Source: Lepidurus packardi (Eukaryota > Arthropoda > Branchiopoda > Notostraca > Triopsidae). From it: DNA of 64,000 nucleotides. How positions within the stretch are numbered: the first letter of the stretch is position 1; every line of letters starts with the position of its first letter. The translations under genes were made by a program, and so were the position numbers. The notes beneath the pieces are model-generated. The model saw nothing but the letters and a program-made list of their open reading frames with translations, did not search any database and was not told where the DNA came from. The stretch spans positions 2,728,001-2,792,000 of the forward strand of contig JAKZAN010000005.1 in NCBI GenBank assembly GCA_023053545.1. The letters run 5' to 3'. Below, piece by piece: positions 5,211-8,400 of the stretch.

Positions 5211-5413
5211 TCACTGTTGGCCATGTTGGAGAGGTCCTTGCTGGGATCCCTGTCCCATGGAGCCAAACGGAATCATGGGAGGTGGAGGTCCCAAATGATG
5301 AGGCGTGCCCATTTTCGGGTTCGGCACGCCTCCCATTGCAACGTTGACGCTTTCATCGGCTTTTTCTTCTTCTCGTCGCTTCAGACATGCTGCTTTGGGG
5401 TTCAAATTACGTT
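5211..5413 (-). CDS. da: da terminal coding exon
   Basis: The acceptor TTCGTAG precedes the split codon that completes [19 protein letters not shown] low-complexity Gly/Pro/Gln tail follows ([20 protein letters not shown] ... PLQHGQQ), with the stop at 5211-5213. Both alternative bHLH exons end in phase 1 and join this exon in frame. Confidence 0.92.
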
Positions 5414-8400
5414 CTACGAACAGACAGAAGATTATGTTAGTATACAATTTCCAACTCAACATTGTACGAATGTGGAAAAAAATAAATAAAGTAAATGAAA
5501 AGGAAAAGAGCAAAGGAGTGGGGTGGTTGGGGCGAGGTCACAAACAGGAAATGCACAAAACGTTACATTCTCACGAGCGTTAATTCCTTTTAAAATCGAG
5601 TGATGATTGCTTGAAAGGCCAAGACAAGACTGAAATATGACCTATTTTTATCAAGCTTTTTCTTTTTAACTTTTGTGGTCCCTCTCTCCCAATCCCCGAA
5701 GCACTCAAGGAATAGCCAGACTGGTATGAGATAGGGCAGGCATTGGTTTTGGATAAAGGGAAGGAGGGGTGGGGAGGGGTAGGGTTGAGGCGCGAATGTA
5801 ATAAGTCAAAGGATGCGCCGGAGGAGATGGGTATTTTGACAAAAGGGTTAAAGGTACCTCTGACTTGCTGTTCCAACTGCATGATGACCTCTACGGCCAT
5901 GTTGAGGATGCCCAGTTTGGTTTGCGGCTTATCCGACTTGAGATGCTGCATACACATGCGGCCCAGTTCCTTGAGCGCTTCGTTGATGTCACGAATACGG
6001 ATCCTGTGTATTAGGAACGGCGGAGGGTAGGGAGGGCGTTGCATGGAGGTGGATTTGGGGTGGGGGAGGGAAATGACGGGGGTACCGAGATTTAAAAGGG
6101 TCAAGTCGAGGAAAGTCGGAAGAAAAGGAAGGAAAAAAAAAGACATTATTGGGACAGTCCCAGGTTCTCACCTCGTACACGTTGCTCTAAAGCAGTAATC
6201 ACTTTGACGGCCGCATCTAACACGGACAATTTCGTTTGGGCCTTATCTTCCGTTATATGCATCATGCACATACGTCCCAATTCTTTAAACGCTTCATTGA
6301 TGTCTCGTACTCGAACACTGGCCGATTATTACAAAGCAAGATTTATAAACACTTGTTTCCAAAGGTTAAAATTTAAAAAAAAAAAAAAAATGCAAGGCCA
6401 TGTCCAATTATTTTTGATAAAAATCTAAACTTGTCAACCGTACTGCTATCAAGTTTAGTTCATGGCTGATAACCCGAACATCCGCCACAAAACACAAAAA
6501 AATGTTACCATAATTGAAAAAAAAATAATTGACTTACCGTTCTCGGGCATTATTAGCTTGTCGTCTTTCCTTTTCTCGGACGACTTTAACGACAGGGTCA
6601 CCGCATTCATCCAACTCTTCATCCCCACTAATAAACGCGCATGGGATAGTGAAAAAAATTGCCAAAAAAAAGGAATTAAAACCAAATTCTCGAACAAGAT
6701 GAAAAGTAATATAGGATATTTCGTAAGGAAATAATAATGCAATGAAAACGAAAGACAAGGCCGATAGCTACGCACTACCTTCGAGATCGCTTGGATCCTT
6801 TTTGGCCATGTGACGAGGAGGTTGGCGTTGCTGGCGTGGACGGTGTCAGGGGCCCGGCTGAGGTAAGATCTTTGCTGTCGCTGCTATCTGGAGCCTCTTT
6901 GCGTTTTTCTAGAAGGGGGAAAATCATGGAGCAAGTTAGTGGCTATTACTTTTTTAAAAAAAGATTTTGTACTACTGCTTTTAGTGGTATAAGTGGTAGT
7001 CGTGCTGGGTTCTCCTTTAAGAGGCACTTCAGGCATGGCTGGTTCTTGGGGATTTGGTACACCCAGATAAGGACCATTACCCACACTACTACTGACCGGA
7101 TGAACCCCCTGTGCGTATGACAACACAAACAGGTGCATTTAGTAAGTTCATTAATTTTCTTTTTTTGGCTCAGGTGCTTTTTTTACCATGTGATCCATAG
7201 GAGGATAGGCGATCATGCCATTAGAGTGATGTGGATGAGCAATTTGGGGCTCTGCATGATTCCGCAAGACGTTGATGGCGTCGTCTAAACGTTCTTCCAT
7301 TCGTGTACCCTGTTGTTATATAAAAGAAGACATTGATAAGTCATCAGTAAATGGCTTTTGGCACTAACATGTTACAAGATCTTGACCCTTCTTTTACCCA
7401 AAGTGAATTCGAGCTCATGCTAATAAAAAAAAGCTAAACAACAAAAAAACTAGGTGCCAACCATACCTCTGCTTGGTTTCTCAGGATGCCAATGGCGTCG
7501 TCCAGTCTTTCCTGCTCAGGCATACGGTTCTACATCGTGCAAAACACACAACAAAAATAAATTCACGCACCACAAGTCATGCAAAGCGCACTCAGACTAC
7601 AAACGGACAAACCTTGGGCAGCAAAAGTGCATTTGACAAGCAAACGCGCTAAAAAATAAATACTCAAAATCACCCAACACCGGACCGCTAGAAAACAAGT
7701 GAAACTATTTACCACCATATGCATATTTCGGTCCCCAAATTGCGGTGAGTTGGTACTGGAGACGGCTGGTCCTTGCCATTGTGGCCCTCCGGGCCCCGCG
7801 AGAGATGTCAACGGCGGTGGCGAGGAAACAGGGGTGGCAGGGTTGGAACTATAGCTGCTTCCACTTTGGTCCGTCGAATAAATCTGCCAACACATAATAA
7901 AAATAAATGAGCAAGTTTCTCGCTTTACATAAATCATTTTTCTCTATTTTTATTGTTTTCTACCGATGCTAAAGCTTTGCCCAACGCATCCCCCGTTTGA
8001 CCGGGTCCGCCTGCCATATTTGGGCTATGATTGTATAAAGGCGAAGCAGTAGGCGGGCCCATGTGTCCAGGTGCAGAGCCGGTCGCGAGGGTTGCTGCTG
8101 AAGGTGCCACATTGCGGAAAGTGGACATGGGCGGCAAGGCGGAGGGCTGGAGTAACGAATCGTCCTGATTTGGCGAAAGGGCGTTATGAGAACCGCCCTG
8201 TACGCCGTGCGGATGGACATATCCCATGGGCATGTCGTGGACGAGAGGGAGTGGAGGAAGCTGCATGCCGTTGCCATGAGGACCTGGACCTTGGCCTGGG
8301 TAAGGACCGGGGTTATTCATGAGGGAGGAGCCAGCGGGAATGTTGGAGTTGTACCCGTAAGGCGTCTGCATCTGGCTCGCTGACGACCAGGGATCGCTGC

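Follow-up and report, generated by a model that had tools for sequence, protein, structure and literature searches.

The daughterless locus

The minus strand of the Lepidurus packardi window, a stretch of 64,000 nucleotides, carries at 6908-5211 the 3' portion of a daughterless/E-protein gene. The features of this gene are listed in Table 1. Exon S stops inside the basic region of the basic helix-loop-helix (bHLH) domain, after the first two bases of the final Arg codon in NNARER, at the donor CG/gtaagt (last exon base 6538). It is followed by two adjacent exons, B and A, either of which can complete the domain, and by a shared last coding exon, L. Exons B (acceptor ...ggccag, donor gtgagaac) and A (acceptor ...acacag, donor gtaccttt) both have GT-AG ends, and their phases are equal.

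Table 1. Features of the L. packardi daughterless gene, in the order of transcription, with positions in the window
Feature	Positions	Strand	Length (nt)	Remarks
Exon X	7467..7529	-	63	Homologous to first part of exon Y
Exon Y	7187..7309	-	123	
Upstream exon	6779..6908	-		Contains KRKE...KRSR
Exon S, shared	6538..6627	-	90	N-terminal half of basic region
Intron S-B	6318..6537	-	220	AG exclusion zone 32 nt
Exon B, alternative	6172..6317	-	146	Remaining basic region, helix 1, loop (ITEDKAQ), helix 2
Intron B-A	6004..6171	-	168	71% pyrimidine
Exon A, alternative	5858..6003	-	146	bHLH half, loop LKSDKPQ
Intron A-L	5414..5857	-	444	
Intronic 21-mer complementary to exon A	5692..5712	-	21	Could pair with 5967-5987, 18/21
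Exon L, shared last coding exon	5211..5413	-		Acceptor ...ttcgtag; TGA at 5211

The splices S-A-L and S-B-L are both open and reach the common TGA. Direct joining of S to L gives one Thr past the split Arg codon and then a stop, and inclusion of both alternative exons gives a premature stop within exon A. The original prediction, that the frame forces the choice of one exon, is thus upheld on the sequence: both or neither would end the protein early, and each productive transcript would run from the shared basic exon through either B or A to the shared last exon. The exon pair is real, well formed and frame-enforced, its members being adjacent, homologous and equal in length and phases, and the positions and lengths originally given for them are correct.

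Both isoforms scored above the Pfam HLH cut-off of 20.7 bits (49.8 for the A isoform and 43.2 for the B isoform). All of the solved-structure matches listed, 8 per isoform, were of E2-alpha, TCF4 or a Max/E2-alpha chimera, and the C-terminal tail after the bHLH aligns with chain 8ubk, which we take to be E12. Judged by these matches, the gene is a daughterless/class I (E-protein) bHLH gene, as had been proposed.

A search of the whole genome with the A isoform returned three matches, corresponding to the last exon, exon A and exon B, and no second E-protein gene was found in this search. The HLH family as a whole has at least 50 matches in the same genome, with 48 of 50 on six contigs. We additionally noted that 38 of the 41 COX1 matches in this genome are interrupted by stops of the standard code; most of these are TGA, which encodes Trp in mitochondria, and many matches also have TAA or TAG. 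These stop-bearing matches are largely partial and lie on large contigs, as expected for nuclear insertions of mitochondrial DNA; the other 3 of the 41 have long open frames without a standard-code stop, and are perhaps derived from bacterial contaminants or symbionts. One COX1 pseudogene, translated with genetic code 5, resembles that of an arthropod.

Further upstream in the daughterless gene, the motif RLDDAI-VLRNHA, which we take to be an E-protein element, appears twice, in exons X and Y. These exons constitute a second tandem duplication within the same gene (71% alike over 45 nt); their lengths are multiples of 3 with phase 0 joins, and inclusion of none, either or both of them keeps the frame.

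Homology and divergence of exons A and B

With the split codons at both ends included, exons A and B are identical at 34 of 50 residues, and at 92 of 146 nucleotides in an ungapped comparison, in keeping with the homology that had been predicted for these two exons of identical length and phase. When exon A was scored against every 146-nt segment of the window in both orientations, the mean number of matches was 36 (sd 5), and the best apart from exon A itself and exon B was 67. The similarity between the two exons is therefore far above the window background, indicating that they are homologous and that the resemblance is not due to chance. The differences between them number 17, 8 and 28 at the first, second and third codon positions (of 48 each), and the NG86 method gave a dN of 0.25 and no finite dS; synonymous change looks saturated, and the copies are accordingly old. 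Our best explanation, which as a whole we consider probable, is that a tandem exon duplication within one daughterless gene produced the mutually exclusive pair B/A.

The motif RxRDIN is kept in both exons. Helix 1 had been described as conserved; the beginning of the exon and helix 1 are not conserved throughout, as positions 2, 4 and 11 of the 50 residues differ between A and B (I/V, I/V and L/F respectively). The loop and helix 2 differ as was claimed, and do so with opposite charges: the loop carries +1 in A and -1 in B, and helix 2 carries -1 in A and +1 in B. Positions that are presumably buried in the HLH are either identical in the two exons or differ by conservative substitutions.

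The switch would thus yield two E-proteins with the same N-terminal basic half and the same C-terminus, and with different loop and helix-2 surfaces. As the basic residues are kept and the buried positions are at most conservatively changed, both isoforms should bind E-boxes; as the charges of the loop and helix 2 differ, the isoforms probably differ in the strength of their homodimers, or in which tissue-specific bHLH partners and Id/Emc-type inhibitors they favour. Drosophila da is known only with the exon-A type, and is not known to make an exon-B product. E-proteins have many partners among the tissue-specific bHLH proteins, and two versions of the bHLH from one such gene would constitute a broad switch that the fly cannot show. 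According to PMC3137626, Drosophila has no E-protein other than Da.

Functional status of exon B

We compared the changes in exon B with the variation found among E-proteins. Exon B departs from exon A at 4 of the 34 columns that are invariant in E12, E47, TCF4 and A, and at 12 of the 16 variable columns (Fisher p 1.8e-5 for the contrast), some of the latter being variable only because exon A itself differs from the vertebrate proteins. In 3000 runs in which a neutral exon B was simulated, four or fewer changes in the invariant columns arose in 0.07%. The three vertebrate proteins agree with one another at 40 columns, of which 8 are changed in B and 6 in A. Changes are thus concentrated where E-proteins vary, and exon B appears to be evolving in the manner of an E-protein HLH. 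We conclude that exon B is probably functional, and we predict that it is used in transcripts.

A contrary reading takes exon B for a relic, a copy of some age that is now unused or hardly used, and exon A for the source of the normal Da. In agreement with this, exon A matches the bHLH half of the fly, as assumed here, at 48 of 50 residues, and exon B has the longest end branch (0.53) of the tree described below. Overall identity is also compatible with neutral change: when the synonymous sites of A were treated as saturated, the simulated neutral exon B had a mean of 28.5 matches and reached at least 32 of 48 in 17% of runs (P 0.17), so that identity to A is in itself no proof of function, and the neutral exon stayed free of stops in 36% of runs. 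Exon B nevertheless retains both splice sites, its changes cluster in the columns that vary among E-proteins, and its departures from the vertebrate-invariant columns are similar in number to those of exon A. We therefore regard the relic reading as quite unlikely, and a functional exon B as the better account of the sequence.

A simpler neutral test, in which all divergence was placed on one copy (mean 16.6 of 48, maximum 26, observed 32), was set aside as too favourable.

Selection of one exon

Long AG exclusion zones mark exons with a far-upstream branch point, and the B-A intron contains 161 nt without AG ahead of exon A. Within the window, 3 of 7634 AG gaps are of at least 158 nt, and the AG exclusion zones of six other introns of the gene span 32-59 nt; the joins S-A and B-L, the acceptors of which are already counted, and the interval 7961-7884, which has no GT, are not among the six. 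Shuffling of the bases of the B-A intron gave sequences without AG with a P of 0.053, indicating that base composition explains much of the missing AG. Two further long runs lacking AG, of 135 and 113 nt and both in the A-L intron, do not end at an acceptor.

Two candidate branch points were identified in the B-A intron: an imperfect ATAAT at +26 (about 6146), which is followed by a long pyrimidine tract, and a perfect TTGAC at +71 (about 6101). A third motif, CTAAT, lies 7 nt from the exon A acceptor and was rejected as too close. Branching at +26 would keep B from being spliced to A. The site at +71, the one perfect motif at a usable distance, perhaps lies too far from the donor of exon B to have this effect in a compact genome. 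We suggest that a branch point far upstream within the B-A intron, together with the pyrimidine tract for exon A, may block B-to-A joining, and the AG-free 161 nt fits such an arrangement without proving it.

RNA structure may also set the choice between A and B, with the intronic 21-mer of Table 1 pairing with the part of exon A that codes for helix 1, and thereby hiding the exon. The complementarity of 18/21 compares with at most 16 in 60 shuffles, and the energy of the duplex has a z of -2.7, with a duplex as strong in 1 of 200 shuffles. This pair was, however, one of nine exon-intron pairs tried, among which a z of -2.6 was obtained for exon S against the B-A intron (the other seven were unremarkable), and exon B has no comparable partner, with at most 15/21 in the introns tried. 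Control by this hairpin is unlikely in our estimate, although it is compatible with the best explanation given above, and the pairing between exon A and its downstream intron is a possible lead only.

Age of the exon pair in arthropods

Either-or splicing has been described in the daughterless gene of a butterfly. The da of Bicyclus anynana contains two mutually exclusive exons (WS/DS) and a downstream common exon, supported by RNA-seq and PCR in the passages of PMC9218548 that treat this gene, and either-or splicing of da is thus not unprecedented in arthropods. This arrangement of an exclusive pair followed by a common exon is the same as the one found here, which does not imply that exons A and B correspond to WS and DS. 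In the literature searched, alternative exons for the bHLH were not described in the da gene of any invertebrate, the nearest account being that of PMC9218548. A search of viral contigs with the exon-B peptide, and of viral and prokaryotic contigs with the exon-A peptide, gave no relative, which is the expected outcome for such collections. In the parts of two insect surveys that list bHLH genes (6 species; 13 species), one E12/E47 member is given per species and a second bHLH exon is not discussed, and in the main text of a crustacean bHLH survey the terms 'intron', 'exon' and 'splic' occur 0 times (PMC5882748).

We constructed a tree from six 50-residue rows, in which the letters of fly Da were assumed and no branch was starred. 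In the best tree exon A is paired with fly Da (89/84), and exon B falls outside this pair. At positions 2, 4 and 11, exon A has I, I and L, as does fly Da, and exon B has V, V and F, as does E47; the state at position 2 is that of E47, and those at positions 4 and 11 are found in all three of the vertebrate proteins compared. Exon B has either kept the old states, the duplication having preceded the split from flies, or reverted to them.

The intron of ant da presumably lies at the same site as the intron that follows exon S, if the motif is taken to start at RR. The passages of PMC3527142 on the ant gene place an intron of 805 bp after 29 nt of the motif. An intron of this length has room for a hidden exon B, and such an exon could be both old and widespread. 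The ant intron site and the patterns of residues are, taken together, weak hints of a pair older than the split of this animal from flies.

It is accordingly conceivable, though we lean against it, that the duplication predates the split from flies, that the switch is the same as that of the seasonal Bicyclus da exons, and that flies have lost exon B. The residues that A shares with fly Da (I2, I4 and L11), the position of B outside the A and fly pair, the ant intron site and the exon arrangement in Bicyclus all agree with this. On the other side, a recent A-B duplication was not rejected (p-AU 0.211), the passages on the Bicyclus exons do not state the domain that they encode, and the surveyed parts of the insect literature list one E12/E47 member for each species, although a second exon might go uncounted in such lists. 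An ancient duplication is compatible with our best explanation, to which it adds age and spread. In its fuller form, this would be an arthropod da switch older than the fly split and separate from E12/E47, of which the fly lost one version, and which elsewhere tunes partner choice, perhaps by temperature or season as in Bicyclus; we put this forward tentatively, as a doubtful extension of the tandem duplication that we favour.

Relation to vertebrate E12/E47 and other exclusive exons

The upstream border of the alternative unit in TCF3 differs from the border found here. The sequence of chain 8ubk, again on the assumption that it is E12, is KAEREKERRVANNARERL, and that of chain 2ypa, which is E47, is KDLRDRERRMANNARERV; upstream of the border used in L. 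packardi the two have KAEREKERRV (E12-type) and KDLRDRERRM (E47). E12 and E47 thus diverge ahead of the basic region as well as within it, whereas here both isoforms have the same N-terminal basic half. The vertebrate unit is longer and starts upstream of the present border, which argues for separate origins.

The tree bears on the same point. The best topology does not pair one exon with E12 and the other with E47, and it places A, B and fly Da together on one side, with weak values (73/77). Constrained alternatives, with A and B alone together (p-AU 0.211) or with B and E47 together (p-AU 0.217), were not rejected. The independent origin proposed in the original prediction is supported by the different upstream border, the tree being weak; the comparison of exon A, exon B, E12 and E47 that it had called for groups the two exons with the fly and leaves the alternatives unrejected.

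We also considered a common origin with vertebrate E12/E47, in which a single exon duplication in bilaterians was followed by shifts in the exon borders. Exon B does resemble E47 at V2, M20 and A27, with 37 of 50 residues identical, and the clade of B with E47 survives the test given above. The divergence of E12 and E47 upstream of the present exon border, which makes the TCF3 unit longer, speaks against this, as do the weak grouping of fly Da with A and B in the best tree and the residue M19, which is common to A and B and is Q in the three vertebrate proteins. Common descent of the two switches is in our view very improbable. The comparison of sequences instead supports a switch that would work like E12/E47, and the origin of which looks independent of the vertebrate one.

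If this is true, the L. packardi gene would hold a second, independent E12/E47-like switch with another border, and would let one ask which residues are worth switching, here those of the loop and helix 2 and not those of the basic half.

Tropomyosin-type exclusive exons, which use a distant branch point, have in common with exons A and B an AG-free, pyrimidine-rich run before the downstream exon; in contrast to them, the sites at +26 and +71 are candidate branch points only. A close parallel is with TCF3, likewise an E-protein gene with either-or exons for the bHLH region, and the analogy that had been drawn with E12/E47 holds in this respect. In mammalian E2A the alternative exons 18A and 18B encode the bHLH region and one of them is chosen, in the passages of PMC5852603 concerned with these exons. 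The intron between 18A and 18B is, according to the relevant passages of PMC12585103, a control site at which PTBP1 acts in human cells, and the B-A intron that occupies the corresponding place between the exons described here is also pyrimidine-rich.
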